A stretch of 49,699 bases of DNA. Source: a virus. The notes beneath the pieces were generated by a model. That model was not told where the DNA came from. It saw only the letters and a program-made list of their open reading frames with translations, and searched no databases. This document shows positions 11,301-46,327 of this stretch, piece after piece (the stretch's first letter is position 1; the number at the start of each line of letters is the position of its first letter). Both the position numbers and the translations under genes were made by a program. The stretch is from the IMG/VR virus record IMGVR_UViG_3300025168_000133, positions 1 through 49,699 of that record; one strand, 5' to 3'.

Positions 11301-13971
11301 GATCTTGCATAACGTCTTGAACTTGAGTTTGGTTAGACAAGACTAACTCAGACATTACATCTAGTGTTTCTTCTATATCTTCTTTTATTTGCTTTTCAGT
11401 AGCCGGAGTTATATTACCTTCTCCATCGTCGTACATAGCTACGCCAAAGTCCATAAATGCTATTTGGTGTTTTCCGTCTTTTCGGTTTTGAATAAACGTT
11501 GTTATCTTTTTATTGTAATCTGTATTGTACAAACTTTCTGTTATCGACTGTTCGCTCCCGTCGTATTGTCTATCTAACTCCTGTAGCCAAGCCCAAGCTT
11601 TTTTAGCATTTCCCCTGTCTAACGCCTCTCCTTCTGCTGATGAGTAAGTGATAGTTTTGTCGTAAGGTCTAGTCACCCCCGAAAAATTCCACACGTCTTC
11701 ATAGAAATCTTCAAAATCCATTTTATTTCCATTAGCTTTTTTGTCTGCCCACCACTTAATAGATTTTGACGACATATTACCTCTTCGGTTCGCAAATTCC
11801 GGCGCTATATCTTCCATGTTACCCATTGTCATGATTGGTATTCTTACGTCGTTGGGGTCTAACCCCAGATAACCAGAAAGTTCTTTTGACGCTTCAACAC
11901 CAATATTATTTAAGAATTTCACCACTATTTCCTGATCTGTTATATCTTTTTCTGACTCTTCTCTTTCTAATTTTTCACGATACTCTTTTACTGGATTTAC
12001 AAGCGTTGAATTTTGATATTTTAATCCATTTTTATAGAGAGCGTTCATTTCTTTTTTGGTAACACCTTCCTTACTAGAAAGGTACGATATAACTTCCCAG
12101 CCATGTTTAAATCTTTTAACTTCTTCACCGTTTCTTTTTAACACTAACTGCCTTAGTCCTCCTCCCTTGTATTCTAGCGTTAATCCAGACCCCTCAAAGA
12201 AATTGTTAAAACCTTCGTCAACCAAGTCGTGTACGTCTTGATCAGATACGCCTGATTGATGCCTATTTAAATTATCAAGCATCTTATCAAACGGCATTGG
12301 CTTTTCTCCAGATTTAGTAGATTTTTGCAAAAGAGAATTTAACAACGTTATATTACCTCTTTCGTCTTTTGTTTGAGCGTCTAACTCTTTTAAAATCATT
12401 TCTAAAGATTCTTTAGACCAACTGTCTCCTTGAGCCCATATTACAAAGTCCCCTTTTTTATAAGCTGAACCTGGATTGTCTTCTCCCCAACTAAGAGGAC
12501 CAATTAAAGAAGGCATATATATTTGAACATAATCTCCCGAAGTATAATGAGAGTTATCGACGTTATTTATTACAAGGTTGTATTTTGATAAATTACCACC
12601 TGTTAATATTTCCGTTATTTCACTTGGACTCGTGTCTCCATCGCTTCCTATTGCTTCTAGATTACTTAGCGCTTTTTCTGTATTGTACTTAGTAGTTGTA
12701 GTTATCTTATTTTCCCCTACTTGATCTGGAGTCATAACCATATTGTCATGCATCCATTGCTCTCCGTGTACTTGAAAGTTAGTTTCCATGTCTTCGGAAA
12801 TTCCAAACTGTATAGTTTCAAGAACATCATCTTGAGTAATCCACTCCTCAAATTTATACATAACAGTCGCCTTATCCATCCATCCAATGTTGGGACTGTA
12901 GTATAATCCAGACATGTCTTGAGCAGTTTCCGTGGATCTAACATACGCGGCAAATGATCTTTTGTCCGTTTCTATTTTTAATTCTTTCTTTAAATCTTCT
13001 ATAGAGCCACCGTAACCTCTACCTGTTAATTCTTCGTACTCTTCGTAAATAGGGGCGATTTCTTTTTTTGTCTCATGGTAAGCGTCTAAATCAAGAAAAT
13101 CTTCGTATCTATCGACTATATATCCTATTCTAATCTCTTTTTCCTCCTCACCTAAATCAGAGTTTATTATTTCACCAATTTCGTCAGCGTAAGAACTAAC
13201 GTCAACAGGTTTAATTAAAGAACTACCGTCGGAATCTATTGTTTTTGAATCTTTTTTATGTGTTTTTAACACGATTTGGAAGTGATTTTCTCCACCCTGT
13301 AAACCAAAAGGATCGTCGGTTCCCTCAGCTTTGTCTATAGCTACGTTATGCGCTAAGGCCTCGTCAACGGTTGTTGAGTAATCGTAACCACCATCCGAGT
13401 ACTTAACTATGTAATCTTCTTCCGTTAATGCTATAGTAGGCGTGCTAGGGTTTTGAGAAGATCTTATGTGATCACTCGGTGTTGAACCGAAACCTACATT
13501 TATAGCTCCTTTGTTCTTAATTTTTTCTTTCTCTCTCTTGTCTTCTCTTTCTTTAATAATACCTTGGTAGTAATTTGCTTTATGTTGAGGGTCTATTTTC
13601 ATGTCAGCAAACAGTACCTCATCTAGTAGTCTTATATACGCAGAGTCTAATTGTTCGTCGTTATATTCTCCAGAATCTACAAGTTTTTTGTATTTTTTTT
13701 CCACCTCATCCATACTAGCTTTTTCCCCCGTAAACACTGATACCTCTTCTTCTGTTGGAACACTTATTGTAGATAAGTCTAATTTTGGAGTTTCATCAAC
13801 TTTATCAGTAACTTCTTCTTCGCCAGCTGCAGCGGCATCACCACCGTGTGCGGCTATGTGCTCTTCGGCTCCTATATCCCACGCGTGTCCATTAGGATCG
13901 TAGCTAGGTAGCTTCTTGTTGTCTTCAGCAAGATGGGCCTTATGTTTTAATGGTGATTTAATTTTAATCAT
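2395..13971 (-). CDS. Giant polyvalent-type internal virion protein with zincin-like and HAD-like domains
   Basis: At 3858 residues this is the largest gene in the window. Visible parts in order: an acidic N-terminus beginning MIKIKSPLKHK; a hydrophobic stretch near residues 1061-1094; the peptide DAAVMSSSMN near 1262-1271, shared with two other phage proteins; a zinc-metallopeptidase motif HEMGH at 1807-1811; a HAD-like domain from about 2910 with DFDET (2917-2921), ILTARA and FVDDALPN near 3050; a strong transmembrane segment near 3548-3571; a Lys/Glu-rich helix; and a C-terminal pair of C..C..C..H mini-domains (about 3788-3858). This architecture fits the 'large polyvalent protein' class described for phages and mobile elements, thought to be packaged and delivered with DNA, and its position matches T7 gp16 or crAss-like cargo proteins. 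No lysozyme motif was recognised. Its ATG overlaps the stop of the upstream 291-aa gene by four bases. Confidence 0.85.
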   Translation of the reverse strand: MIKIKSPLKHKAHLAEDNKKLPSYDPNGHAWDIGAEEHIAAHGGDAAAAGEEEVTDKVDETPKLDLSTISVPTEEEVSVFTGEKASMDEVEKKYKKLVDSGEYNDEQLDSAYIRLLDEVLFADMKIDPQHKANYYQGIIKEREDKREKEKIKNKGAINVGFGSTPSDHIRSSQNPSTPTIALTEEDYIVKYSDGGYDYSTTVDEALAHNVAIDKAEGTDDPFGLQGGENHFQIVLKTHKKDSKTIDSDGSSLIKPVDVSSYADEIGEIINSDLGEEEKEIRIGYIVDRYEDFLDLDAYHETKKEIAPIYEEYEELTGRGYGGSIEDLKKELKIETDKRSFAAYVRSTETAQDMSGLYYSPNIGWMDKATVMYKFEEWITQDDVLETIQFGISEDMETNFQVHGEQWMHDNMVMTPDQVGENKITTTTKYNTEKALSNLEAIGSDGDTSPSEITEILTGGNLSKYNLVINNVDNSHYTSGDYVQIYMPSLIGPLSWGEDNPGSAYKKGDFVIWAQGDSWSKESLEMILKELDAQTKDERGNITLLNSLLQKSTKSGEKPMPFDKMLDNLNRHQSGVSDQDVHDLVDEGFNNFFEGSGLTLEYKGGGLRQLVLKRNGEEVKRFKHGWEVISYLSSKEGVTKKEMNALYKNGLKYQNSTLVNPVKEYREKLEREESEKDITDQEIVVKFLNNIGVEASKELSGYLGLDPNDVRIPIMTMGNMEDIAPEFANRRGNMSSKSIKWWADKKANGNKMDFEDFYEDVWNFSGVTRPYDKTITYSSAEGEALDRGNAKKAWAWLQELDRQYDGSEQSITESLYNTDYNKKITTFIQNRKDGKHQIAFMDFGVAMYDDGEGNITPATEKQIKEDIEETLDVMSELVLSNQTQVQDVMQDLADNGWMPGITVNEETGDIKLDQVIWEGEGEEPDNHPPLLDINGDPVIDQKTGEVVTLVDHLYDAISVYHDTREEISAEIERIGNQQIEMMGNELTLDAIQSQEFFSTDYWENFWRRAGRGSDNVLLTIPALLGNESAIDQLQINNKAAQREKSYEWGEGNNWGAFGMVWADQGANMIYFVSTLGVGSAVGFGTKTTMAIASGGIALQSMGGKDVQLKTLYENAEDALLKLDALNEEYDKGFVTDETYLLNKQNIDDIVRAADISAAQHFFSVLQTGLVEGTFTYGFGLLGAGRLNTARNLQKVFANSKSGLQGTMSYNPYIATRDVITGTVRGTVGEIAEESSIYLTTEFIDSYLFDRKGDYSQLSKVMIDAAVMSSSMNSMSLTANAVINHNMKKETRDEFNAIFQQINDIKGKLDNDGNPTPGSIMDIDLQIKKAVGNPQEVARLEELRKVLNDEVMQLEKKNFINWQNFHVQVLGMNEADQKTIFENEKALNKYYVEAGVTSKTAADETHVEKMLQLYKARLNKKKKGSGDAWYNKYHEIKKSNEELKDNFDMETAAKAIYGPNYKDNGGRKEIQNRIKNDKTKKGKKRAEEYDRADEQNKLRLELEYIQQSFLENATSEMKDNDKIVDAVETNTGDAYYEVDGNVYETKKDFIDAVKKAKEGEGEVVIKVENDDQASILSDNIMSQNSNNDVTVEDNNYNSDGAKVISTEEEIETLEREATEEATGEKIEGEVDPSKRKVTILNDKRHQTEEQWENKHKNTKNYKYKRHQRDRKQKEIYDYLARTHYAGGKKGLQTFQEGKINSKNIAEEVKKSTGKDLVFDEVGSVDGLLNKINELAALPDGDPNRINSDQQTRLREQVENNRKQIEKNSNGFILGNTFFVINEKQAKIRMGEDLDATGEGSFLQGAAWMHEMGHYLDNVTKTIEEISQKGIYLHEFLSKDKNKRAQILNEAVESDLRRMSDGEGFYLKNGETIANIINERKKTTTSKKRLDRIDQILDEYIREVTTKISHSKFAKLRQDVTERGRSTFPRFRKDDYTVKNAREAAFEVVSFLEDFKKGRISESYRVQVAAAKNKKGLAGDVRSDMQQSVTKGGETIEQSINNLVRNTDGSLMTKEEYDALLDKGVQTKRRRDKKTGDWVITKQPHPANLLTSDPNLPGNDWLNGSIRNLGTRMEGSNVIFVKGQKDPMSDFMQAVKDKLTTAITNYNPETKYQGAAEGDLSGWLAQTIIYKKPGVIDDFRKLQETRAAAEQGGDYKGDGTLDVETVEGTVVFAKKLGFTEDVIGQDENGNDITRNVFDSIVEEKIMEIIALDPKTYKDTKSLIKAKDAVLVEILNLVAEEFGVKPSKLIDDASLTTGERTSMQLKINSIGARSMLNMMPEGFNSLGDANGVQPVFLDGKKGKAINSETGETNLIYTAQEGRVKTVKQRIGNKIVFGTEKKKGGGKGLKIQKKNFVDNINEADYLDMLGITPVGVERRFRTEDRIVDGPLRASVMQVAMIIANQSITKIAGEKGLVGLQSMKDGKGDLMLSSIIDASGQDAIQNMYWDGRNEFHGQLGLDGVILDVNNPVVLKQQITTAFEKTWPNEKAWIGDDKVDYKGKLINWYSKILREKYIKYTDKSVVIEGQDTNSFLDFLMAEDAKRDDVSGTVAKIMEVESITPWIEDETNREDQRKFNRTTVVPYIEKIKKRYPKLDEEQIKEKVFQDFYSFRGFLNSGFNKGKNGKYRGSQSIFKNNDFYTENLLNQIYPNIDKVIKIRGKNLVKITFKNSNETKTIEILQEHAQKVTKEMIATTNKDGNIDSPMSEVERDSRKQLSDEALRFTDDIFEISAKLAKDESNNFTKMNFAALAAQMNSHPTTPLRMGAVFTWAALDPFTTALNVDGKRTFEFEHGMPARIVNSMFIMKHWFGQDISLKDIKKVYEVGALHVDFNENVSRLFGTRMNFNYQIGDSALKRWYSQWTKTGASHALYNVFTGEVVGQQQADNWKKIDASNKARTASNAIQNSRVINHNTPSRGASVFDFDETVGISDNYVIATKEGETKRISSEEWPFVGERMVNEGWKMDFTDFNRVTDGRPGPLMDKLKNRIKKFGPENNYILTARASESETSIHNWLKEQGINIPLKNITGLGNSTGEAKAMWIAGKYSEGYNDMYFVDDALPNVRAVKNMMEQLDIKGSSVQAKINFSSTLDTKFNDILESTTGIESQKRFSEAQAKLRGNKGRYKGLVPASAQDFLGLLYNFIGKGKKGDADMVFFKEALIDPFARAINELNASRQSAANDYKNLTKQFPKVKKRLNKKAGETGFTNDQAVRVYLWNKAGFDVPGLSKRDLDALDSYVKNDSELQAFADNLGLISKKQEGYSKPGEYWLVENIASDLMSDGAIGDARAEFLAEWKQNVDQIFSPENLNKIESIYGSKFREALVDILTRMETGRNRSVGSNRLMNNYMNWVNNSVGAIMFFNIRSAVLQTISATNYINWTDNNPLKAAAAFANQKQFWSDFVTLFNSDYLKQRRSGNRRGVNEADLSAAVKGVGPAEQAKAVIRYLLKIGFLPTQIADSFAIASGGAAFYRNRVKTYVKQGMSKTEAETKAFLDFQERTEVSQQSARPDMISQQQANPLGRLILAFQNTPMQYGRIMNKAFRDIANGRGDTKTHMSKIIYYGGIQAVIFGALQAAIFASLGDDEEEEFDKKKERILNGMIDSWLSTFGYGGKAVSTMKRSLEEYLEQKDKGYNADHAYTIISLLSFSPPISSKLRKIYSSIQTEKFNEGVFTKRGFTLDNPLWSAIGNTVEGITNIPLGRISQKLLNIDNATDSSNEWWERVALVMGWNTWDLGIKDKDIQAVKEEIKEEKKIETKKKREIKKEEKKKEKEEEEKKVIEDNIEKQKKEKKDGKKDIMCAAVSKSGKRCKTVIEKGSVYCTIHVKVEQNKSGKNTQCKKMKQVSKKKTERCGMMTNSKSGYCYYHD

Positions 13972-14856: not shown

Positions 14857-15540
14857 TTATTTCGCATCTTTTTGACCTAATCCTCTTTCTGCTAGCCCCG
14901 AAAGCCAATCGCTACCCATGCCAACCCCAGCCTTTAAAGACCCTGTGGCAAAAGCATCTATCTGCGAGTTCATTTCGTCAATTTTTTGATTAGCAGCGTT
15001 TTGTCTTTGCCCTGCGTAATCTAACATTTTTGCTTGTTTATCCATATCGTACTGCTCTACCATTCGATCTCCTTCTCTTTCTAACATATCTCTTTTTTGC
15101 TCTCCCTTAGCTTTTAACTCTTGTAATCTTCCAGATTCAGCAACCATTCTTTGTTGGTTAGCTTGTTCTTGAGCCCCAATACTTAAAGAAGCTTGTTGCG
15201 CTTGTTTAACTCCTTGATTAGCCAATACCTGCGCTAATCCAGCTACACCACTTCCTCCAGCGGCTCCTTGCATACTGGTCATTATATTAGCCATAGATTG
15301 TTGTGATTGTTCTTTTTCAAACTCAGCTTGCTTTAAGTTTACAGTTTGATCTTCGTAAACATTTTCTAAACTTTCGTAAGGATTTTTTACACCAGCGTAG
15401 GGATTTTTCATTTTAGTATCCTCGTAATCATCCATGTGTCTTCCAAAATCTTCTTGTGCAGCTCTTTGTTCTTTTCTAAGCGCAGCTCCTCCAAACACAG
15501 CGGTAATAAATTTTGCTGGTGTTGCTTTTTTATATGCCAT
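14857..15540 (-). CDS. Internal virion protein, Gln/Ala-rich (T7 gp14-like)
   Basis: The product is 227 residues. A basic N-terminus (MAYKKATPAKFITAVFGG) is followed by a long Gln, Ala and Glu-rich helical region with a Gly/Ala stretch (QGAAGGSGVAGLAQVLANQ, about residues 92-110) and a final Gly-rich amphipathic segment. This composition and length are typical of the small internal virion protein of podoviruses (gp14-like), which inserts into the host envelope during DNA ejection. It is the first of three adjacent genes (227, 291 and 3858 aa) that mirror the gp14-gp15-gp16 set. Assignment is by composition and order, not by a diagnostic motif. Confidence 0.65.
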   Translation of the reverse strand: MAYKKATPAKFITAVFGGAALRKEQRAAQEDFGRHMDDYEDTKMKNPYAGVKNPYESLENVYEDQTVNLKQAEFEKEQSQQSMANIMTSMQGAAGGSGVAGLAQVLANQGVKQAQQASLSIGAQEQANQQRMVAESGRLQELKAKGEQKRDMLEREGDRMVEQYDMDKQAKMLDYAGQRQNAANQKIDEMNSQIDAFATGSLKAGVGMGSDWLSGLAERGLGQKDAK

Positions 15541-29793: not shown

Positions 29794-31023
29794 TTATTTT
29801 TGTTTAATTTTAAACTTAAAATCAGGTCCATCATCATTCAGGGCTCTAGCCGTAAAACCACTAGTATTCACGTTCTCGACGTGTGCTTGCCTAGGATCCA
29901 TACTAACATTTTTAGATTTAGCAATACTGTCTTTTAGCGCGTCAGCCTTACCTTGCTCATAAAAATGATTAGCAACTTGATCTGGGTTCATAGCGGTAAA
30001 AAGTCCTTTGTGATAACCCCTTGCGTCTTCCATTACTTCGTCTTTATTAAGAAACTTTCCTATAAAGTTGTTAATGTCGCTTTGAGTTGTTTTTACTTTG
30101 TCAGTATCTTTAATGTTAAATCTAAATTTTTTGTCTCCAACTTCATATTCAAAACCTTTGAACTTGTCGTTAAAAACATTTTCTGTTTTAGATCTAAAAA
30201 TATCTAACATCTTTTGATTTACTTCTGATCTCTCGTTGTGTTCGTTGAAGAATTTCATAGCGGTTTGTTGCTCTTCAGTCAGCTTACTTCCGCTTTTGAT
30301 ATCTTCGTAATATTTGGATTTTACACTTTCCAAGTGTAGCTTTGCTTCGGCAACTTGCTCCTTCATCGCTAATTTTTTTCTTTTTATTTCTCTATCTTCG
30401 TCTACCTCTTCATCATAAGCAAACGTATCCTCCATAACGAAGTCTACTTCGTCTTCTGATAAATGTGGTTTAGTAGATTTATAATATTCTTTTAGTAGAG
30501 TTTGATTGTCTAAATCTGAATAATCTTGATTAAGCGTTACATAGTCGTTTAAATCTCCACCTGTTTCATCCATAAAGCTCATTAGTTTCTGGATGTTTTC
30601 TGGAAGTTCAACTCCTGTTTCTTGAGATTCAACAATAGCTTCTTCGACAGCCTCAGTTATTTCCTCTATTTTTTCTTCGTTTGTTACTTCTTCTACAACT
30701 GGAACTTCTTGTGTTTCTGTTTCCGGTTGTATTTTTTCTTGTTCTTGTGAGGTAGGGGTATCTTCAATGAGTTCAACCACTCCTCCGTCGTTAGCTGTGT
30801 TTTCTTTAATTTCTTCATTTTCTTTTGGTGTTGGTGGTTTATCTAAATTAACCTTAGTTATACTTTGTTCTTCAACTATAGGTTTCATTTTCATTTTTTC
30901 TTGAACTTTAGTAACGTTTCCTTTTGTTTCGTTACCATCTGGTTGTTTTTCTACCTTTTCTTTTACTTTTAATGAACCAGTTTCGTTATCCACGACTGGC
31001 TCTTCTTTTTTCTTTTTTGCCAT
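29794..31023 (-). CDS. Scaffold-like acidic protein
   Basis: This protein of 409 residues is strongly acidic. It has a low-complexity Lys/Glu/Val/Thr-rich N-terminal 150 residues (MAKKKKEEPVVDNETGSLKV and onward) and a coiled-coil centre with repeated E-rich helices. The C-terminus after about residue 360 is basic and ends KFKIKQK. This profile, and the position between portal and capsid genes, is that of a phage scaffolding protein, which assembles the prohead and is removed. No protease motif is seen within it. Confidence 0.7.
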   Translation of the reverse strand: MAKKKKEEPVVDNETGSLKVKEKVEKQPDGNETKGNVTKVQEKMKMKPIVEEQSITKVNLDKPPTPKENEEIKENTANDGGVVELIEDTPTSQEQEKIQPETETQEVPVVEEVTNEEKIEEITEAVEEAIVESQETGVELPENIQKLMSFMDETGGDLNDYVTLNQDYSDLDNQTLLKEYYKSTKPHLSEDEVDFVMEDTFAYDEEVDEDREIKRKKLAMKEQVAEAKLHLESVKSKYYEDIKSGSKLTEEQQTAMKFFNEHNERSEVNQKMLDIFRSKTENVFNDKFKGFEYEVGDKKFRFNIKDTDKVKTTQSDINNFIGKFLNKDEVMEDARGYHKGLFTAMNPDQVANHFYEQGKADALKDSIAKSKNVSMDPRQAHVENVNTSGFTARALNDDGPDFKFKIKQK

Positions 31024-37778: not shown

Positions 37779-38206
37779 TATGATATAGCTGGTGCAGATG
37801 CTCCTACGTAAGCAGGTCCGTAATAACAAATTACGCCGTGCGTTGAATCAGCATTTAGTGAAACACTAGTCCATCTACCATATATAGTGAGTCCCTTAGG
37901 AAACACTACGCTAGTAGCCACAACGACACTTTCTACGGTATCTGTATCATCAGCGTCAATACCATTGGCTAACACTTGTGATCCAGTTCCAAAATAAGCA
38001 GTTCCATCACCACCTTGTTTGGCTGCTACGTTAGGGCCATTAAGATGTGTGTCTGCAGTTAAAACTTCAAACGATACGTCGTCAAGCATTGTAATAGCTA
38101 CTATAACCGAGCCTGCTGGAGGCATTAAATCTGTAGCAGAAGCTTTTATATGTCCACTACCCATTTGCCCAAAGCCATAAGCGACTTCTGTTGAATTTTG
38201 TCCCAT
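37778..38206 (-). CDS. Beta-rich virion protein (marine phage type)
   Basis: This protein of 142 residues is rich in Gly, Ala, Val and Thr with alternating hydrophobics, contains PPAGSVIVAITMLDDVSFEV and SVVFPKGLTIYGRWTSVSLN, and has no signal peptide. It belongs to a type that I recognise from marine podovirus structural genes. It is directly followed by, and TAATG-coupled to, the LamG-like gene, and lies two bases after the holin gene. Confidence 0.6.
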   Translation of the reverse strand: MGQNSTEVAYGFGQMGSGHIKASATDLMPPAGSVIVAITMLDDVSFEVLTADTHLNGPNVAAKQGGDGTAYFGTGSQVLANGIDADDTDTVESVVVATSVVFPKGLTIYGRWTSVSLNADSTHGVICYYGPAYVGASAPAIS

Positions 38207-38207
38207 T

Positions 38208-38600
38208 TTATTTTTTTGTTTTTTCTAGTGATCTACCACCGAAGTAAGCTCCGATCACGGTTATTAATACTAATTGTAATAGATCAGTCCATTTAGCTTC
38301 AACCGTAAAGTTGATAGCACCAGCATCGATAAATATCAATAACACTGTTGCTATAACTAAGAATATTAAAACCAATGGTCTAACGTTTTTGCTCAACCAA
38401 GAATCAGATTTCATATCTGCATTCCATCTTGTTGAGATTTCTTTTTCCATTTGAACTTCGTAATTTGATACTAGTTCTTTAATTTTTTGTGAAGCAGCTA
38501 ACTTTTCTTCTTCTGAAGTGTGCAAGTCGTCTATAACTCCACCTACACCTTCTATAAGGTCTTTAGTTCCTCCACCTGTAAGCATTCCTAATATATTCAT
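38208..38600 (-). CDS. Holin, GTA 3-TM type
   Basis: This protein of 130 residues matches the pattern of the 'holin of 3TMs, for gene-transfer release' family. A charged helical half ends in the signature DSWLSKNVRPLVLIFLVIAT, and a second transmembrane segment follows (LLQLVLITVIGAYFGG), ending GRSLEKTKK. Holins open the inner membrane at the end of infection. No endolysin was recognised next to it, but the HExxH protein is two genes away. Its start codon overlaps the upstream stop. Confidence 0.8.
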   Translation of the reverse strand: MNILGMLTGGGTKDLIEGVGGVIDDLHTSEEEKLAASQKIKELVSNYEVQMEKEISTRWNADMKSDSWLSKNVRPLVLIFLVIATVLLIFIDAGAINFTVEAKWTDLLQLVLITVIGAYFGGRSLEKTKK

Positions 38601-39037
38601 TATCTAAGTTTGTTTGCTTCTATTGCTGCTTTTTCTTTTGCTCTTAAAATTTTCATCTTAGCGTCGTATTGAGCCTTAGACATTTTTCCATGATTGTGGT
38701 AATCTTCGTTTAAAAAATCAATTTGATCTCCTATATCACCAACCATTGCTTCTTTTTCATAGTTACGTGGTTTTTTAGTTTCAGAAGGAAATCCTTTTTT
38801 ATTTTTCTTTAAATCATTATCTCCATTTTTTTTCACGCCTTTAGAGGTCATGCCACCACCAATAATAGCAGCGTCTAACATGGCTTTAGATAAATTATCT
38901 CCATTTTTTTGGAAAGGAGAAGATTTAGCTCTACCATCAGGCATGTTTTTATCTGATTCATGGCTAATACCTGGTAAGGCGTTTTTACGTTTCCAATAAG
39001 CCATGTTTTTCATTTTGAATCCTTTTTTGTTTTCCAT
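38600..39037 (-). CDS. Small basic protein sharing the LSKxMxDAA peptide
   Basis: This protein of 145 residues starts at ATG 39037 (the ATG at 39070 would overlap the upstream gene by 25 bases). The start carries GFKMKNMAYWKRKNALPG, similar to the FKxK tag of other small genes in this phage. Residues about 45-65 contain SSPFQKNGDNLSKAMLDAA followed by IIGGGM, which is nearly the same as LSKVMIDAAVMSSSM in the giant protein. The C-terminal third is a Lys/Glu-rich helix. No function can be assigned. It lies between the HExxH protein and the holin. Confidence 0.6.
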   Translation of the reverse strand: MENKKGFKMKNMAYWKRKNALPGISHESDKNMPDGRAKSSPFQKNGDNLSKAMLDAAIIGGGMTSKGVKKNGDNDLKKNKKGFPSETKKPRNYEKEAMVGDIGDQIDFLNEDYHNHGKMSKAQYDAKMKILRAKEKAAIEANKLR

Positions 39038-39045
39038 TTTTATTT

Positions 39046-39438
39046 TTATTCCCAAGGCATTTTTTCCCACGGAAACTCTTTGCTTCCTTCTGGTATCATT
39101 TCGCCATTGTAGTTAATCATTCCGTTTTTTCTTTCGTAAGTTTCTCCGTTCCACTTAATGTAGTTATCATTATAAGCTAACTTTCCAATTTTCATATCTG
39201 TTTGATGTACCATCTCGTGCATCAGCACGTGTTTTTCTTGGTCACTTCCTGGCTCAACTTTATGACTTATAAATATAGATCCATCGTTATTAGCTTCACC
39301 TAATATACCCTTACCAAGATCCTTGCGTAACACAGGTGTTCCTGGTATAGATGCATCAGACTGTTTAAACGACAATCTTGATTTGACTTGCCCTTTATTA
39401 AACGCCGGTGTACGTGATGACCCTAGTTTAAATGCCAT
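39046..39438 (-). CDS. Small HExxH putative zinc peptidase
   Basis: This protein of 130 residues contains HVLMHEMVHQTDMK near residues 70-83, a HExxH zinc motif (HEMVH) followed by a short helix. The third zinc ligand is not identified. The N-terminus MAFKLGSSRTPAFNKGQ resembles the FK tag of other small genes here, and the C-terminus ends with a Trp/Pro/Glu stretch (KEFPWEKMPWE). It could be a prohead or injected peptidase that cuts the tagged proteins, or a lysis factor. The role is inferred only from the motif and neighbours. Confidence 0.6.
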   Translation of the reverse strand: MAFKLGSSRTPAFNKGQVKSRLSFKQSDASIPGTPVLRKDLGKGILGEANNDGSIFISHKVEPGSDQEKHVLMHEMVHQTDMKIGKLAYNDNYIKWNGETYERKNGMINYNGEMIPEGSKEFPWEKMPWE

Positions 39439-39439
39439 A

Positions 39440-39880
39440 TTATCTGTCTTTATCTTTAATCATATCATCTATAGATTTATTAAAAACCTTATCGGTATAT
39501 GATTTGTTATTATAAAAAACACTTCTTTCTGATGTTGGTAAATCTTCTTCACCTAACAACACCCTATATATTCTACTTATCAACTGAGAACATTTGAATG
39601 ATGTTTTAAACACCGAGTATTTTATTGTTGTTCTGTTTCTGTGTCTCCAGGTTTCTATCCAACCTGCTTTTTTAAGTTTTACCCAACGATTATTATCCCA
39701 ACTCATTGTGTAGGTACCATCTTTAAAACCTTGTCGTGTAAATCTTCCTTTACAATCTAAATAAATTAATAATTCTAAATCTGCATCTGTTAACCCGTAA
39801 GTCTTACAGGCCCACTTTCGTGTGAGCCTGTAGTACTTAAGGATATTCATTTCACGCAAATCTTGCGCGGTTAGTCTCAT
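39440..39880 (-). CDS. Winged-helix DNA-binding protein
   Basis: This protein of 146 residues reads as a winged helix: helices around RKWACKTYGLTDADLELLIY, then FTRQGFKDGTYTMSWDNNRW, VKLKKAGWIETWRHRNRT and TIKYSVFKTS form a MarR-type H-T-H plus wing pattern. It is likely a DNA-binding regulator in the late block. An RNA-capable hairpin of 10-11 bp lies within its first codons (see the hairpin at 39805-39832). It is one base downstream of the HExxH gene. Confidence 0.65.
   Translation of the reverse strand: MRLTAQDLREMNILKYYRLTRKWACKTYGLTDADLELLIYLDCKGRFTRQGFKDGTYTMSWDNNRWVKLKKAGWIETWRHRNRTTIKYSVFKTSFKCSQLISRIYRVLLGEEDLPTSERSVFYNNKSYTDKVFNKSIDDMIKDKDR
39805..39832 (-). other. RNA hairpin inside the 5' end of the winged-helix gene
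   Basis: The arms 39806-39815 and 39822-39831 pair perfectly with one G-U (ACAGGCUCAC with GUGGGCCUGU on the minus strand), closed by a six-base ACGAAA loop; the flanking T/A also pair. It lies about 50 bases inside the coding region. A stem this long in coding DNA is unusual and could serve autoregulation of a DNA- or RNA-binding product. Confidence 0.5.
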
Positions 39881-39885
39881 TTAGA

Positions 39886-40260
39886 CTATGCAGCAGCAGT
39901 TATTGTAATAGCACCGCAAGAAGTAATATCATCAGATACCTTAACTCCAGTAGCATCGTCACAAATAGTGACAAAACCATCACCATATTTCATACCGTTA
40001 ATAGCAGCAGTAATATCAGCTATAACTAAATGTTGTTTAGCTGCAGTGATATTTAATACTATCTTATCCACAGCCGCAATATCAGCACCTGTACCAAGTA
40101 TACTATCAAAGTGCATTTCAATTGCATCGGTATCAGCAATAAAGCCAAAACCTCTAAATTTACTTAACGGACGAGCAAAACCCTCGTTAGCACCGTCGTT
40201 TACACCATCTCCCGTTTGGAAGTAAAGCATAACCATTTTTGAATTCGCATATGTTCCCAT
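39886..40260 (-). CDS. Small virion-type protein
   Basis: This protein of 124 residues is Ala/Ile/Asp-rich, mixed alpha/beta, with the segments GDGVNDGANEGFARPLSKFR and AIEMHFDSILGTGADIAAVD. It has no signal peptide or transmembrane segment. The composition matches decoration or head-associated proteins of marine phages. It is preceded by a 76-base stretch without features and lies after GroES in transcription order, which might relate to folding of a late protein. Confidence 0.55.
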   Translation of the reverse strand: MGTYANSKMVMLYFQTGDGVNDGANEGFARPLSKFRGFGFIADTDAIEMHFDSILGTGADIAAVDKIVLNITAAKQHLVIADITAAINGMKYGDGFVTICDDATGVKVSDDITSCGAITITAAA

Positions 40261-40336
40261 AATTTTTTGTTTTTGTTAATTAATAATTAGTTTGTTTGTT
40301 CGTTTTGAGTTTAAGGGTTTGGGTTTTTGGTTTGGG

Positions 40337-40594
40337 TTAATCTATTAGTACAACGTCCATTTGTTTGATAACGCCGTAAAATTTATCTTTATGCTGGATT
40401 CCATGTCCAGCGTGTTTGTCGTAGTATATTACATCGCCTTCTTTTATTCCCTCGACGATGTTACCAATTGATATTACCTTAGCTTTTAAATACCTATTGT
40501 CTTCGTTTGTTTCATCTGTAAGGATTAGGCCACCTACTTTCTTCAGCGCCTCCTTTATTGGCTCTATTACAATATAATGATTAACTGCTTTCAT
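40337..40594 (-). CDS. groES: Phage GroES co-chaperonin
   Basis: This protein of 85 residues matches GroES: MKAVNHYIVIEPIKEALKKV start, the mobile-loop region KVGGLILTDETNED, then KAKVISIGNIVEGIKEGDVI with the GroES strand pattern and a final GVIKQMDVVLID. It is shorter than bacterial GroES (about 95-97). It lies immediately downstream of GroEL and overlaps the GroEL stop by 14 bases, the same pairing as in host operons, so the two should form a phage-specific folding chamber. It is transcribed with the late genes. Confidence 0.85.
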   Translation of the reverse strand: MKAVNHYIVIEPIKEALKKVGGLILTDETNEDNRYLKAKVISIGNIVEGIKEGDVIYYDKHAGHGIQHKDKFYGVIKQMDVVLID

Positions 40595-42143
40595 TTACCC
40601 TTATATTAGATATTACACAATTTGCGGAGATTATAGTGGAAACGACGGAGATTGCGTTCTTTAATGCTGTTTTTGTTACTAGAAGAGGGTCGATAACTCC
40701 ATGATCAACCATATCCACAGTATCACCACTAATAACATCAATCCCGTTTCCTTTAACATTTGGTTCGTCATAGTTTTCTATTCCCGCGTTATATAGTATT
40801 GTTTCAAACGGTGCTTTAATAGCGTTAAGCAGTATTGTTTCGCCAACGTTTTTAGGTTCTATATATTGAGAAGCATTTAACAAAGCAATTCCACCACCAG
40901 GAACAATACCTTCCTTTAACGCAGCTTTTGTAGCATATATCGCATCCTCAACTCTATCTTTCTTTTCTTTCAGTTCCACTTTAGAATCTGCTCCTACGCG
41001 CACAATTCCTACGGAACCGGATAACATAGCTAATCTTTGTTCTATTTTTTTCTTTAAAAACCCGTTCTTTTCTTTGCTCTTAAGCTTTTGCACTTCTTTA
41101 ATTCTTTCGGAAACGTCTTCTGTGGTTTCTAAAGTGGTAATTACAGTGTTCTTATCGTCTGTAACAGATTTCTCTACTTCTCCAAGTACATCTAAAGAAA
41201 TTCCGTCTAAATCATCGCCAAGTTCTTCGTTTATCACTTTGGCCCCAGTTAAAATAGCTAAATCTTTAATTGTCTCTTGTTTTGTTGGTCCGAAACCTGG
41301 TGGATCAATTATGTTAATTTTAATTGTTCCTTTTACTTTATTCATCAAAATCGCTGATTTTATTTGTTGGCTTACTGGAGCAACAATTAATAAAGATCGG
41401 TTATTTTTTATTACAAATTCTAATACTTTTTGTATTTTCCTAATATTTGGGATTTCCGATGCAACAATTAAAACTAGAGGATTATCTAGTGTAGATCTTT
41501 GTTTGTCTGTGTCGGTTGTAAAGTGCGGTGAAGTAAGTCCAGATTCTATTTGCACACCATCAACAATCTCAACATAAGTGTTTTCAGTATCTGATCCTTC
41601 CATCAGCACTACCCCGTCTTTCCCTACTTTTTCATAAGCTTCTGATATAATTTTCCCAAGTTCTAAATCGTTGTTACAACTAATCGCGCTAACGCTTTGT
41701 AACATATTCCCTTTAATATCAAGAGCATTTTCTTTAAGATAGTTATTAATTTTCTTTGCTCCTGAATTAATCCCTTCTTTTATTTCTCTAATAGTCGCGT
41801 TTTTCTCACGACTAACTTCTTTTATTAGTGATTCAGCAAGGACGATGGCCGTCGTAGTACCATCCCCTGCCTCTTTCACTGTATTTCTAGCAGCCTCTTT
41901 AATAAGGGTAGCCCCCATATTTTCAACCGGGTCGAATAAGACTACAGATTCTGCTACTGTAACTCCGTCTTTTGTTATGACCGGGTTGCCTCGTGCGTCT
42001 TCATATATGACACATTGTCCTGAGGCTCCAAGAGTTGATTTAACGGCTTGCGCTAATTTATCAACTCCAGTAATAATTTTGTCTTTAGCGGAATCGCCAA
42101 AGTTTAAGTCTTTGACAATCTCACTAGGTAAGTTGTATTCCAT
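40581..42143 (-). CDS. groEL: Phage GroEL chaperonin
   Basis: This protein of 520 residues has all main GroEL regions: KSTLGASGQCVIYEDARGNP with the nucleotide loop, TKDGVTVAES with the conserved Asp, AGDGTTTAIVLAESLIKE at about residues 92-109, an apical domain with GLTSPHFTTD, KVKGTIKINIIDPPGFG and LAILTGAKVINEELG, and the hydrolytic Asp in VEDAIYATKAALKEGIVPGG. It has TLGASGQ in place of the usual TLGPKG. It lacks the usual GGM tail, ending NIRVNESS. The catalytic core looks intact. GroEL in a phage genome is rare; here it is likely for phage-specific capsid or tail proteins. Confidence 0.9.
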   Translation of the reverse strand: MEYNLPSEIVKDLNFGDSAKDKIITGVDKLAQAVKSTLGASGQCVIYEDARGNPVITKDGVTVAESVVLFDPVENMGATLIKEAARNTVKEAGDGTTTAIVLAESLIKEVSREKNATIREIKEGINSGAKKINNYLKENALDIKGNMLQSVSAISCNNDLELGKIISEAYEKVGKDGVVLMEGSDTENTYVEIVDGVQIESGLTSPHFTTDTDKQRSTLDNPLVLIVASEIPNIRKIQKVLEFVIKNNRSLLIVAPVSQQIKSAILMNKVKGTIKINIIDPPGFGPTKQETIKDLAILTGAKVINEELGDDLDGISLDVLGEVEKSVTDDKNTVITTLETTEDVSERIKEVQKLKSKEKNGFLKKKIEQRLAMLSGSVGIVRVGADSKVELKEKKDRVEDAIYATKAALKEGIVPGGGIALLNASQYIEPKNVGETILLNAIKAPFETILYNAGIENYDEPNVKGNGIDVISGDTVDMVDHGVIDPLLVTKTALKNAISVVSTIISANCVISNIRVNESS

Positions 42144-42164
42144 TTAATTTAATTTAATTTAATT
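42144..42164. repeat. TTTAA microsatellite upstream of groEL
   Basis: Four tandem five-base TTTAA units lie directly upstream of the GroEL ATG (minus strand reads AATTAAATTAAATTAAATTAA). The A/T-rich string sits in the leader where Bacteroidota initiation depends on A/T-rich sequence rather than on Shine-Dalgarno boxes. Variable copy number could alter expression. Confidence 0.5.
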
Positions 42165-42170
42165 GTGTTT

Positions 42171-42551
42171 CTATTTATCGGACACTTTTTTTAGATCCTT
42201 CTTTAGCTTTGATCCTACAGTTTCTTCTTTTAAGTGCTTTGCAGTTTTATTCTTAGCTGTGACAGATGCTATCCCCTTTGCTAATGTCTTAAAACCTTTT
42301 CCTGTTTTTTCGCCTGAAAATTTGCTTTTTATATGCTTGTATAATCCAAGTTCGTAACCGGCCATAGTTTGTTGAGTTTTCCGATACCAATCTGGTACTG
42401 GAAGTCCTCCTTCTTTTGGAAAAGGAACTCTTTCTTTAGCTTCTTTCTGGCCTTCTTTTAGATGTTCTTTCCACCCTTTCTTTTCGTCTTGTTTCATTGG
42501 CGAAATCCCAAGATGCGTCGGAAATCCCTTCATTTTAAATGGTCCTGCCAT
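42171..42551 (-). CDS. Small basic protein with FKMKG/SPMKQ tag
   Basis: This protein of 126 residues begins MAGPFKMKGFPTHLGISPMK, the N-terminal tag also found in other small genes of this phage. The remainder is basic and helical (KEHLKEGQKEAKERVPF, SVTAKNKTAKHLKEETVG). No known domain. It lies directly upstream of GroEL. A cargo or scaffold-type role is possible. Confidence 0.55.
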   Translation of the reverse strand: MAGPFKMKGFPTHLGISPMKQDEKKGWKEHLKEGQKEAKERVPFPKEGGLPVPDWYRKTQQTMAGYELGLYKHIKSKFSGEKTGKGFKTLAKGIASVTAKNKTAKHLKEETVGSKLKKDLKKVSDK

Positions 42552-42559
42552 AGTTTTAT

Positions 42560-42850
42560 TTATTTGAATGTTTTTATAACTTTAGGTCCTTGTGTAGCCT
42601 CTATCTTTTTAGAGAAATGGTCGATGCTACCGTTAATTGCTGTCTCGGCACCTTCGATCGTTTCTCTTCTTGTAACAGCATGCCACTCTTCATTATCTGG
42701 GTTGGAGCATTCTGTTTGGTAGAAGCCATTAGGAAGTTGGGTAATACGCCAATTAGCTTTAGCAGCTAAATGCTTCCATTGGTTCATAGTTTTTTCATTC
42801 GGTTTAGTTGTGTTCGTGGTATACGAACTCTTGTAATACAAGTAAGTCAT
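42560..42850 (-). CDS. Small protein of unknown function
   Basis: This protein of 96 residues is mixed polar and hydrophobic with WKHLAAKANWRITQLPNGFY and WHAVTRRETIEGAETAINGS. No signal peptide or known motif. The N-terminal part is polar and Thr-rich. An alternative start at residue 22 (MNQWKHL) is possible. It lies between two small basic proteins. Confidence 0.5.
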   Translation of the reverse strand: MTYLYYKSSYTTNTTKPNEKTMNQWKHLAAKANWRITQLPNGFYQTECSNPDNEEWHAVTRRETIEGAETAINGSIDHFSKKIEATQGPKVIKTFK

Positions 42851-42893
42851 TTTGGTTTTATTTTAGGTTAATAACTTGGTTTAGGGTGTATCC

Positions 42894-43808
42894 CTATTCT
42901 TTTTTCTTTAATTTAGCTGTTTTAGCATTCATACTACTAGACATAACAGCGGCGTCTACTGCTAACTTCGATCGTGTTCCCTTTGTTTGTTTTACAGCCA
43001 AATGTCCTTCGTGAGCAGCGATCGCCTCTGTTGGATGTTTGCCTGTATGTTTAGCTGGAGAATCTTTTTTACCTTTTCCAGTAAGAATCCCTTTAAGAGT
43101 TCTTCTTGATTTAGTGGTAACATTACCTTGTTTGTCGGTTTTGGTAACAGTACGTCTTCCGTCTCTTACGTCTACCTCTTTTTGTTTCGTGTTACCTTTT
43201 TTGTCCCATTTCACTTTAGTTTTAGTTTTAGTTCTGTACTCTCCCTCTTGATCGTGCCCTGAGTCTTTTCTTTTGTGAACGTACTTTTTAATTAGACCAT
43301 CTTTTCTGTAAGTACTCTTCTGTTTATTAACTAATCTACCATCTGAATTTTCGTCTACAGATTTAGTGGTTTTCTTCTTAACTTTACCATCTTTACGATA
43401 TACTGTTTTCGATTTATCTGTATCTACGCTGCTAGTCTTTTCAACTCTAGGTTTGTCTTTTTCTGTGCTAGTAGCTGTTCCTTTGTATTTATCTTTAAAA
43501 TCAGCACCGTAATAAGCTTTGTTTATAGCGTTTTGTGCATCGCCATAAGCAGCGCTCTTTTTATAATCTGGTTTTTTACCCTTAGATTTATCTTTTGGAT
43601 CTATATACTTTTCTGCATTTCTAGCAGCTATTAATTTTTCTAACTCTGGATTCTCTTTTACCGCTCCAGCGTATGTTCCATCTGTTTTTAAAGCAGATGC
43701 TTTTTCTTTAAGTGCTGAAGCAGCTTTTTGTTCAGCAACCATTTTTAAAGCTGAACTATGTGCACTAGTTCCACTTTGAATCGATTTTCCTGGTAAATTA
43801 AATCCCAT
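42894..43808 (-). CDS. Basic low-complexity protein with DAAVMSSSMN peptide
   Basis: This protein of 304 residues is very rich in Lys, Arg, Ser and Thr, with repeated segments such as VYRKDGKVKKKTTKS, STYRKDGLIKKYVHKR and VKWDKKGNTKQKE. The C-terminus holds KLAVDAAVMSSSMNAKTAKLK, whose DAAVMSSSMN is identical to the segment in the giant protein, with 29 of 31 bases shared. It looks like a cargo or DNA-binding protein rather than an enzyme. It is followed by a small 5-bp hairpin at the stop codon. Confidence 0.65.
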   Translation of the reverse strand: MGFNLPGKSIQSGTSAHSSALKMVAEQKAASALKEKASALKTDGTYAGAVKENPELEKLIAARNAEKYIDPKDKSKGKKPDYKKSAAYGDAQNAINKAYYGADFKDKYKGTATSTEKDKPRVEKTSSVDTDKSKTVYRKDGKVKKKTTKSVDENSDGRLVNKQKSTYRKDGLIKKYVHKRKDSGHDQEGEYRTKTKTKVKWDKKGNTKQKEVDVRDGRRTVTKTDKQGNVTTKSRRTLKGILTGKGKKDSPAKHTGKHPTEAIAAHEGHLAVKQTKGTRSKLAVDAAVMSSSMNAKTAKLKKKE

Positions 43809-43836
43809 TGTTTTTGTTTTATTTGTTAATTAGTTT

Positions 43837-44529
43837 TTAATACGCTTCCCAATTAGAAGTATATGTTATTTTCCCGTTTTTTTCCGTGTAACTTCTTCTC
43901 TTTTTTACTCCATCTATTATCTCTGTAACAGTTTTTGTCTTTGAGCTTCTATTTTTCTTACTCCACTTTTTTCCTTCTTCTGTTTTGTTATATTCCTTTA
44001 CTCTGTCCATATAATCATTGTATTCATCAAAGTCTTTAAACACGTTGTATGCGTTTTCGTCAGTCCCCATTCTACTTTGTTGACCTGTAGTTGTATATTT
44101 TTTCTTTTTCTGTTCCCAGTGTTTTTCACGAGATATTCTATCTTCTCCTGTTGTTGTTGTTTTTGTTGTGTCTGGATCTTGTTTGTATTCGTAACCTGTA
44201 AGAACATCAGGATTAACAACTAATTCACCGTCTTTATCGTAAGTATATGGTTTTGATTTTCCACTTCCTACCTTTGGGGCTGTAGGGCTTTTTCTAGGAA
44301 CAAATCTAGTGTGTATATTGTAACCACCTACATTTTGTCCGCCACCACCTTCAACTCCTCTAGATTTAGCGTAACCTCCTCTACCTCCTAGGTAATTACC
44401 TTTTTTAGATGTCGCAGCACCAGCCTCGGTACCACCTCTAGTTGTTTTTTTTCCACTAACACCTCCTGTTCTACGTTTTTTCAACGGCGATACACCACCT
44501 ATAATTTCTTTATTCATATTATTCATCAT
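43837..44529 (-). CDS. Basic Gly/Lys/Thr-rich protein
   Basis: This protein of 230 residues is basic with low-complexity Gly/Lys/Thr segments (TGGVSGKKTTRGGTEAGAAT). It includes SPLKKRRTGG near the start, like the SPLKHK of the giant protein. It ends with repeated KKRRSYTEKNGKITYTSNW. It contains no transmembrane segment. Possibly a virion cargo protein; function unknown. Confidence 0.55.
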   Translation of the reverse strand: MMNNMNKEIIGGVSPLKKRRTGGVSGKKTTRGGTEAGAATSKKGNYLGGRGGYAKSRGVEGGGGQNVGGYNIHTRFVPRKSPTAPKVGSGKSKPYTYDKDGELVVNPDVLTGYEYKQDPDTTKTTTTGEDRISREKHWEQKKKKYTTTGQQSRMGTDENAYNVFKDFDEYNDYMDRVKEYNKTEEGKKWSKKNRSSKTKTVTEIIDGVKKRRSYTEKNGKITYTSNWEAY

Positions 44530-44534
44530 TATTC

Positions 44535-44999
44535 TTAAGTCGACGGAGTTACGTAATTTGGATTAGCAACTTTTACACCGTCTTTCATGATATACTCAGA
44601 AGTTGTATCAATTTTTGTGATATCTTTAAGATCGTCTTGCACTTCAGCTTTTTTACCGTAATTAATCCTAGGATATTCTCTTTCTCCACCGTAAACACCT
44701 TGGATTCCTCCAGAAAGCAAGGTTGTACCGATTTTCAAGGCTTTTACCCAGCCTTTATCTGTTTTTGCCGCGTCTCCGCCTTGTGTGTTTGTTGTGTTTT
44801 TTGTTGTTTCTTCTTTCTCTTTCTTTTCCTTGTTTTTTTCGTCATGGTCTTCGTGCTCCGTATAAGGTGAACTACCAGGTCCGATACCGAAATTATTTAA
44901 ATAAGCGGGTGTTTTACTCCCCATTTTTTTAAAAGGTGGATTATTACCAGATTTTAACGTAAACGCGACTCCTTTTTTATATTTTCCTAATCCTGCCAT
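44535..44999 (-). CDS. Basic tag-bearing small protein
   Basis: This protein of 154 residues carries GVAFTLKSGNNPPFKKMGSK near the start, then SSPYTEHEDHDEKNKEKKEK and a charged linker, an amphipathic Gly/Leu segment (ALKIGTTLLSGGIQGVYGGE) and a polar end. The tag matches the family seen in the 46.3-kb gene (LRSGNTPLFKTMGSSP). It is between two other small basic genes. Function unknown. Confidence 0.55.
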   Translation of the reverse strand: MAGLGKYKKGVAFTLKSGNNPPFKKMGSKTPAYLNNFGIGPGSSPYTEHEDHDEKNKEKKEKEETTKNTTNTQGGDAAKTDKGWVKALKIGTTLLSGGIQGVYGGEREYPRINYGKKAEVQDDLKDITKIDTTSEYIMKDGVKVANPNYVTPST

Positions 45000-45001
45000 A
45001 A

Positions 45002-45391
45002 TTATGTTGTTGTTGGACTGAATGGTCCAGTTTCATTATCTGTTTCGCCATACCCCATTGCTTCTCTTTCGGCGTCTTTTTCGAGTTTTGCTGCTACAAT
45101 AGCGTTTTTTTCTTCTTCTGCCATAGCTGCAGCTTCTGCTTTTTTAGCCTTATTGGCTTTTATTCCACCAAAAATAGCACCACCAGCACCACCTATAAGG
45201 GCGCCCGCTACGTTACCTAGGCCTGGAACGACAGAACCAAGCGTCGCTCCTAGTTTAGCGCCTTGCGCCGCTCCTTGTAATGCGTTTTTATTTGGAGTTT
45301 CGCCAGGTTTTGTACCTATGTCTTCTGGAAAGTTTTTCTGCATAGGACTATTATTATGTCCAGCAGCTTTCATTTTAAATGGTTTGCTCAT
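45002..45391 (-). CDS. Tag-bearing glycine-zipper protein
   Basis: This protein of 129 residues begins MSKPFKMKAAGHNNSPMQKN (FKxK and SPMQK tag), then a Gly/Ala-rich glycine-zipper-like segment GAKLGATLGSVVPGLGNVAG followed by ALIGGAGGAIFGGIK, then a Lys/Glu helix. Glycine zippers insert into membranes, so it could be an ejected membrane-active protein. The tag is shared with the 126-aa protein at 42.2 kb. Confidence 0.6.
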   Translation of the reverse strand: MSKPFKMKAAGHNNSPMQKNFPEDIGTKPGETPNKNALQGAAQGAKLGATLGSVVPGLGNVAGALIGGAGGAIFGGIKANKAKKAEAAAMAEEEKNAIVAAKLEKDAEREAMGYGETDNETGPFSPTTT

Positions 45392-45393
45392 AT

Positions 45394-45630
45394 TTATGAT
45401 TTTACTTCACCTCTAGTGTGAGTTGCTCTATTGTAAGCTATCGATGTCCTTTTTACGGTTCCGGACGACGTGTGATGTAAGTCTGTTTTGCTGTTTTGAC
45501 CGATTCTTTGGTTTTCCGCACGCTTTGACTCTCTCGCTGGGCTATTTGCTGCTGCTAAATCTCTAGATCGTTTAGCTGCTAACGCAACTCTTGATAGTCC
45601 TTGTGAATTACCAGGTCGTTTTTCAGCCAT
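45394..45630 (-). CDS. Small basic protein
   Basis: This protein of 78 residues starts at ATG 45630, one base downstream of the stop of the 231-aa gene; an ATG at 45783 in the same frame would overlap that gene by about 150 bases and is rejected. It is basic and Arg/Ser-rich with RVALAAKRSRDLAAANSPAR and TSSGTVKRTSIAYNRATHTR. No known motif. It may be a nucleic-acid-binding or packaged protein. Confidence 0.5.
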   Translation of the reverse strand: MAEKRPGNSQGLSRVALAAKRSRDLAAANSPARESKRAENQRIGQNSKTDLHHTSSGTVKRTSIAYNRATHTRGEVKS

Positions 45631-45631
45631 A

Positions 45632-46327
45632 CTATCTTGGAAGATTATCAGGGTGAAGTGGTCCTTTAATAAGTTTATTATACGTACGCTCTTCTTCTTT
45701 CTTAAGGAATTCCTCTCGTCTTTTCCTCCGTCTGTTTCTCTTTTCTGAAGAGGATTCTTTCTGTCTGTCAGATAAGTCATCAAGATAATCCATTCCTTTT
45801 TCTTTAACTGTATCGTAAATTTTACTATAGATGGATTTTGGCTTAATTACTTTACCATCTGCGTCACGCTTGATTTTAGTATCAGCTTCTTTTTCCTCGA
45901 TATCTTCCACTTCTTGATCCTCATTCATTTGTTGCTCTGGTGTTTGAACTGGAATTACTTTCTTTTTCTTTTTCTTATCAGCTTCTTTTTCTCTCGCTTC
46001 TGTCTCTGTAAAGTCTTTTTTCGGTTTTGCTACTGATTTTCCTTTACCAGCGGTTGGATCCTTTTCTACTAACTTATCTATTTCTTTTTGTTGATTTTCT
46101 TTAGAGTCTTTAGGTCCAGATTGCTTTCTCTTTCTTATTATATCCATTACGTCGGTATCTTCCGGTCCTTTTACAGGACCTTTCTCGTACGTTTTGTTTT
46201 CAGTTACAATTGACTGTTTTTTACGTGGAACACCGTCCGGCGGGTCCGTAGCGTAAGCAGGTGATGACCCCATTGTTTTAAATAAAGGTGTGTTACCTGA
46301 TCTTAGTTTGAATGGTGCGTTTGCCAT
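45632..46327 (-). CDS. Tag-bearing charged protein (first gene of the late block)
   Basis: This protein of 231 residues begins MANAPFKLRSGNTPLFKTMG followed by SSPAYA, the longest version of the N-terminal tag. A highly charged, helical Lys/Glu/Asp-rich body follows (about residues 60-230), including poly-Lys and RRKRREEFLKKEEERTYN. It is the first clear minus-strand gene next to the divergent switch region, so the late promoter is probably upstream, between about 46.33 and 46.5 kb. Function unknown. Confidence 0.6.
   Translation of the reverse strand: MANAPFKLRSGNTPLFKTMGSSPAYATDPPDGVPRKKQSIVTENKTYEKGPVKGPEDTDVMDIIRKRKQSGPKDSKENQQKEIDKLVEKDPTAGKGKSVAKPKKDFTETEAREKEADKKKKKKVIPVQTPEQQMNEDQEVEDIEEKEADTKIKRDADGKVIKPKSIYSKIYDTVKEKGMDYLDDLSDRQKESSSEKRNRRRKRREEFLKKEEERTYNKLIKGPLHPDNLPR

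Follow-up and report, generated by a model that had tools for sequence, protein, structure and literature searches.

A short N-terminal tag shared by otherwise unrelated late proteins in a lineage of uncultured phages: a probable signal for loading cargo into the procapsid

Results

Tagged proteins of the window

The stretch analysed here, hereafter the window, is the whole of a linear 49.7-kb IMG/VR virus record (IMGVR_UViG_3300025168_000133, 49,699 nucleotides), and the element in question is a short N-terminal tag on several of its small late proteins. The tag consists of a first box of the F-K-M-K type and a second box, SPxK, with the consensus MAFKMKG...SPxK. All its carriers described below are encoded on the minus strand. 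The full two-box form, followed by a lysine-rich body, is found in a 126-aa protein (42171..42551; MAGPFKMKGFPTHLGISPMK, MAGPFKMKGFPTHLGISPMKQ). A 129-aa protein (45002..45391; MSKPFKMKAAGHNNSPMQK) has a body with a glycine-zipper-like membrane segment; in PHROG, its residues 34-117 weakly match segments of tape-measure, tail-lysin and endolysin proteins. Two proteins of 231 aa (45632..46327; MANAPFKLRSGNTPLFKTMGSSPAY) and 154 aa (44535..44999; FTLKSGNNPPFKKMGSKTPAY, MAGLGKYKKGVAFTLKSGNNPPFKKMGSKTPAY) form an FKLRSGN sub-class, of which the second is divergent, and a minigluzincin-like zinc peptidase (39046..39438; MAFKLGSSRTPAF) combines MAFKLG with HEMVH. The protein at 38600..39037 reads MENKKGFKMKN...SSPFQK once its start is moved from the GTG at 39070 to the ATG at 39037, which is probably the true start because the relative in L004 begins MTFKMKN.

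Three further proteins are marginal. The 304-aa protein at 42894..43808 (MGFNLPGKSIQSGTSAHSSALK), overlooked by the first-pass annotation, has a divergent tag whose start corresponds by eye to MAFKMKGSPHKTGTMEGTSAHKSALK and MAFKMKGSSMHSGTASHASALK in relatives (the form MAFKMKGSxxxxGTxxHxSALK). The 230-aa protein at 43837..44529 does contain the SP part attributed to it (GGVSPLKKRR), but lacks the first box and is a weak member. For these two and for 44535..44999, blastp gave no homologue among the fetched relatives (for 42894..43808, none at E 1e-3). Finally, the N-terminus of the giant protein (MIKIKSPLKHK; IKIKSPLKHK at 13939..13968) is tag-like and had been listed as a carrier of the SP part; SPLKHK is, however, missing from the giant homologues of four relatives (L272, L265, L292 and L259, read from the apparent start), so that it does not count as a conserved feature.

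The other starts listed by the first-pass annotation all exist between 38600 and 46327; its sequences were right, its kilobase values are the low ends of minus-strand genes, and its 38.6-kb start is the one revised above. The pattern exceeds chance. A box F[KT][LM][KRG] lies within the first 30 residues of 6 of the 42 window genes (0.10 expected), and SP[ALMF][KQ] within the first 60 residues of five (0.13 expected); when each protein's own first 100 residues were shuffled over 5000 rounds, no round equalled either count. The first box occurs seven times in the 15,118 residues of the window, six times N-terminally, and all six genes fall inside a 14-gene block at 38.2-46.3 kb. The bodies had been called unrelated, and indeed, once 28 residues had been taken off, no two tagged window proteins matched each other at an E below 0.27.

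Spread and lineage restriction

A search of viral metagenomes for the tag, as the first-pass annotation had proposed, was carried out on IMG/VR with a degenerate DNA pattern for MAFKMKG. It returned at least 120 stretches, and MAFKMKG starts at least 147 open reading frames (ORFs) on at least 120 contigs. A looser rule raised this to at least 271 distinct tagged ORFs, a count that contains a few opposite-strand chance ORFs. The 239 that were long enough for comparison form, among the matches listed, 95 clusters of bodies, of which 77 have a single member. Aligned representatives of 91 clusters share the consensus MAFKMKGxxxxxxSPxK and almost nothing beyond it. S[PA]xK is present in 40 of 95 proteins against 2.5 expected, and strict SPxK in 29 against 1.1; because the proteins were selected by the first box only, the enrichment of the second is independent. 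In L092, L139, L165 and L194, tagged proteins carry long runs of SAMKMKKE-type repeats, which look like a multiplied second box.

Other routes yielded little. A full tagged protein as query found one relative, with a match 23 residues long; full-protein searches perform poorly because the bodies turn over, and the DNA pattern for the tag succeeded. Searching a phage collection by tblastn with a composite tag and with the peptidase gave no match, and no paper came up when the literature was searched for the motif string. In 257 Gb of bacterial and archaeal genomes the same pattern had 27 matches; the 19 readable as ORFs resemble chance occurrences, several being internal to a larger protein.

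A structural-gene homologue of the window lies within the fetched stretch at 82 of 119 tag loci, and 34 of the remaining 37 have the window's terminase elsewhere in the record. By these matches the tag belongs to one lineage at 116 of the 119 loci checked; our searches found no isolate of that lineage. When loci were sampled through their terminase, independently of the tag, 22 had sufficient upstream DNA, and 18 of these showed a convincing tagged ORF (the script counted 19, one of which we discounted).

Modularity, exchange and selection on the peptide

The tag had been proposed to be a modular signal, and the comparison with relatives bears this out. Besides the 95 unrelated body clusters, BLAST matches of the window's tagged proteins are mostly confined to the tag (17-24 residues, about 80% identity) or to tag and linker. 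The 126-aa protein thus matches L169 over residues 4-20 only (82% identity), the 231-aa protein matches L254, L256 and L253 over its first 20-24 residues only (about 80%), and 38600..39037 matches L004 over 39 aa spanning tag and linker (85%). In the same search the untagged neighbour at 42560-42850 had 52 homologues. Conversely, near-identical bodies start with MAFKMKG in one genome and MAY[IV]Q.NNPFKK in another, and one exchanged body is placed behind an unrelated, larger N-terminal region. In L133, the ORF at 4173-5039 joins a cargo-type body to a larger preceding N-terminal region in which PAP2-phosphatase-like motifs are visible by eye.

The alternative start defines a second signature, MAY[IV]QKNNP[FI], often followed by CGRRR, which we found in 48 ORFs on 47 contigs (seen in L122, L128, L133, L134, L174, L183 and L257-L297). 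All 25 scorable ORFs of this class are on the late strand, many of them beside the giant gene. The two classes have bodies in common, namely the DUF6321-like, VWPSAYA and KTCLPAAK families. In the window, a 227-aa ejection-type protein (14857..15540, minus) starts with MAYKKATPAKF, a possible tag of the MAY class; its relatives show MAYKQNSPNKF, EDSPLNF and KGSPFNF.

A start shared by adjoining genes, in which GCA is favoured for Ala2, could be a DNA- or RNA-level element, such as a translation start context or a recombination hot spot, with the peptide as a by-product. Yet synonymous variation at F, K and G of the tag is about as high as in the bodies or higher: F codons follow genome usage, K codons are close to it and Gly codons are more even. 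The distance between the start and the box also differs (MGKFKMKG, MARKSKAKFKMKG, MKKGPFKMKG), and conservative changes occur (F/Y, M/L, K/R). Since codon choice is near genome usage and several offsets are found, selection acts on the peptide, and we regard a nucleic-acid-level origin as extremely unlikely.

Genomic position and properties of the tagged proteins

Tagged genes belong to the late module. Every one of the 96 MAFKMKG ORFs that could be scored shares its strand with the terminase or giant gene, and four long relatives of 61-67 kb have tags on 29 of their 197 late-strand ORFs and on 1 of the 109 ORFs of the early strand (Fisher 2.7e-5). They adjoin terminase, chaperonin and ejection genes, and in the long relatives form two groups, one upstream of the terminase around GroEL/GroES and one after the giant gene. 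The chaperonin genes of the window (40337-42143) are likewise flanked by tagged genes. This neighbourhood, in the window and in relatives, would suit a folding or sorting handle for the phage GroEL/GroES; many tagged genes, however, lie after the giant gene, distant from GroEL, the phage elemoA has chaperonin genes and no tag, and the tag of the peptidase is disordered in its model. The chance that the tag serves the chaperonin is therefore slim.

Tagged proteins are short, hydrophobic-poor and net positive, with 16.6% lysine versus 8.6-9.3%. Pfam and PHROG scans assign almost no function to their bodies, except for DUF6321 and an M90-like peptidase match. Two small basic proteins in the syntenic place in phi38:1, gp69 and gp80, are annotated as structural through similarity to phi18:1 proteins. 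The lysine content and charge would fit a nucleic-acid-binding element, the tagged proteins being nucleoid or condensation proteins that accompany the phage DNA or act on it, and SPKK motifs of histone tails do bind A/T-rich DNA. Charge alone nevertheless leaves unexplained that F3 and M5 are conserved like the lysines (F being part of the selection rule). Moreover, the scaffold protein ends in the same box, as described below, and a scaffold is expected to exit the head before DNA packaging. We consider this explanation unlikely.

The first-pass annotation had also offered a processing signal. If a maturation protease recognised the tag or removed it as a propeptide, as happens in T4 or phiKZ heads, this would agree with the removal of T4 capsid targeting sequences by gp21 (PMC5694885) and with the presence of a tagged zinc peptidase. 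In the tagged proteins, however, conservation does not extend past the tag, and [ILAV]xE follows the tag in 35 of 95 proteins against 28.8 in shuffled sequences (range 16-40), which is no enrichment of a T4-type cleavage motif. Of the window proteins, 24 were scanned with Pfam (25 counting the tagged peptidase) and none matched a prohead protease; the set did not include the scaffold, GroEL/GroES, 15983-17260, small ORFs of the plus strand or any tagged protein except 39046-39438. Proteolytic processing thus appears very unlikely.

The tagged zinc peptidase

The peptidase at 39046-39438 is the most widespread tagged family, with 98 unique members found; these were chosen by an H[EN]xxH-type motif, so that finding the motif in every member proves nothing by itself. 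With the same caution, H74, E75, H78 and E125 are invariant among 67 aligned members. M1, F3 and K4 are at least 90% conserved in this alignment, and the next 20 residues are variable. HExxH plus a third glutamate in about 100 residues, as in minigluzincins and SprT-IrrE proteins, is found in the window protein. Its profile matches selecase 4qhf (E 4.5e-4), and the top Foldseek hits are IrrE, SprT-type proteins and selecase/abylysin, all weak (E of 0.17 or more). In the AlphaFold2 model, residues 1-28 are mostly disordered and are followed by a folded domain.

A similar box at the C-terminus of the scaffold

The window contains a complete head-and-tail module, all on its minus strand. It comprises the terminase (33443-35659), the portal (31054-33441), a 409-aa protein (29794-31023) which, lying between the portal and major capsid protein genes, occupies the scaffold position, the major capsid-position protein (28276-29775), a 2262-aa muzzle protein (18295-25083) and, at the end of the module, the 3858-aa giant protein (2395-13971). 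The scaffold-position protein, which has no known relative by sequence in PDB, is predicted to be helical in its core and disordered at the N-terminus and in the C-tail (AlphaFold2, 61 homologues). It ends in a box, FKFKIKQK (29797..29820, minus), that reads FKFKIKNK or a variant in homologues.

A pattern [FIL][KR][MLIVF][KR] lies within the last 14 residues of 57 of 59 complete scaffolds versus 0.77 expected; as scaffolds are homologous, this figure measures conservation and not 57 independent events. Five of the 59 additionally have the box in their first 20 residues. It was found in neither the last 14 nor the first 20 residues of homologues of TerL, portal, major capsid protein, GroEL, g27354, g26420, g25087 and g35858; 4 of 58 GroES have it at the C-terminus. 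The scaffolds of MW202828 (GLKIRSPKK) and phi38:1 (KLRFKRKK) possess the box, and tagged cargo was seen in neither phage; in phi18:3 and crAss001 no scaffold box was seen by eye. As a pattern, then, the box is common to scaffold tail and tag. The earlier proposal of capsid targeting gains indirect support from it, the box being absent from nearly every other late family tested.

Lineage of the window and other genes

The closest deposited terminases are those of MW202828 (64% identity) and of the Flavobacterium elemo phages (Elemovirus, 46%), followed by the Cellulophaga phages phi18:3 and phi38:1 (Baltivirus and Callevirus, about 38%); identity to gut crAss phages is below 25% along long stretches. 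By these terminase identities the window is best read as a sister lineage. The tagged lineage is related to Elemovirus, Pervagoviridae and Pachyviridae and has a crAss-type muzzle, the window's 18295-25083 protein matching the Crassvirus muzzle domain PF25731 (Pfam, E 1e-14).

Several other genes deserve mention. A second GroES-like protein (35858-36469, phrog_13932) is encoded upstream of the terminase, besides the pair at 40337-42143. The untagged 96-aa protein at 42560-42850 (MTYLYYK...) is highly conserved, lies between tagged genes in the relatives examined and has no Pfam match. Sub-threshold Pfam matches in the late module concern a thioredoxin (1677-2030), a LamG/concanavalin-like lectin (36972-37829) and a holin of the gene transfer agent type with three transmembrane segments (38208-38600). 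Tandem cysteine/histidine motifs with a GxCYxH-like end occur both at the C-terminus of the giant protein and in a small protein of the plus strand (48266-48544); giants of relatives terminate in GKCYYHD or GKCYAHQ. The protein after the muzzle (17301-18266) contains repeats of the type CTNPTATNYNPLATIDDGSC, which we take to resemble those in secreted Bacteroidota proteins.

Discussion

We propose that MAFKMKG...SPxK is probably an interchangeable N-terminal signal for loading procapsid cargo, which would work by binding at the docking site of the scaffold tail. Late in infection, several small, lysine-rich, mostly disordered proteins and one zinc peptidase would be made, each with a flexible tag. 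Its first box, in which an aromatic or aliphatic residue alternates with lysine, follows the same pattern as F-K-F-K-I-K in the scaffold tail. Since the tag has this scaffold-like pattern, it probably docks at the inner site of that tail, which may be on the major capsid protein or the portal, or else on the scaffold lattice. Tagged proteins would be enclosed at procapsid assembly and ejected later with the DNA, and new cargo could be gained when the gene behind a retained tag is replaced, or when tags are exchanged.

Several observations weigh against this proposal. No virion is known to contain a tagged protein, and the isolates with proteomics lack the tag. Four of the 22 terminase-anchored loci have no convincing upstream tag. 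The SP element does not occur in the scaffold box, that of MW202828 excepted, and by eye scaffold and cargo boxes show no residue-level co-variation, LRIK scaffolds coexisting with FKMKG cargo. The lysine-rich tagged bodies would also suit a DNA-binding role.

Elements of such a system are known elsewhere. Scaffolds of the P22 and phi29 type have a flexible, coat-binding C-terminus; the present one is likewise helical with a basic disordered C-tail, and may bind the coat in a similar manner. Encapsulin cargo-loading peptides are short, modular, found on unrelated cargo and dock on the inner shell; they are usually C-terminal and belong to bacterial compartments, not virions, whereas the tag is N-terminal in phage proteins.

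T4 offers a further parallel. Its internal proteins IPI-III and Alt share a short N-terminal capsid targeting sequence (PMC3012670, PMC5694885). The tag, too, is a phage-encoded N-terminal sequence on small, otherwise diverse proteins, is expected to act at the scaffold or procapsid stage and, given the number of body clusters, stands on unrelated proteins; it would work as the T4 sequence does. The T4 sequence is cleaved by gp21, and neither enrichment of [IL]xE-like sites nor a protease among the window proteins scanned was found here. Unlike the T4 sequence, the tag has about 95 body clusters, two exchanging classes and a box in common with the scaffold C-terminus; the two are likened by description.

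Payloads of the PVC, an extracellular contractile injection system, have a disordered N-terminal packaging domain that is sufficient to load foreign proteins (PMC10097599). This resembles the tag in being an N-terminal region on unrelated payloads, but it fills a contractile injection tube with the ATPase Pvc15, not a phage head. PhicrAss001, a related type of phage with a muzzle and stored cargo, keeps gp45-gp50 in capsid and tail, according to the parts of the report drawn on here (PMC10172136), which describe no loading signal; gp45-gp47, gp49 and gp50 lack the tag and gp31 lacks the box.

A broader and more tentative idea, which we hold at somewhat below an even chance, is a phage-wide cargo code: dozens of unrelated N-termini would copy the shell-binding tail of the scaffold, and at least two interchangeable classes (MAFKMKG...SPxK and MAYxQKNNP) may sort cargo to different places in head and tail.

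If the loading signal is real, a one-line sequence test would identify the head cargo of an uncultured phage lineage, and about 100 families of unknown genes would receive a first functional label. Short-tag capsid targeting would have arisen outside T4, apparently without proteolysis, by copying of the scaffold tail. The proteins injected first, including a conserved small zinc peptidase, would become directly testable.

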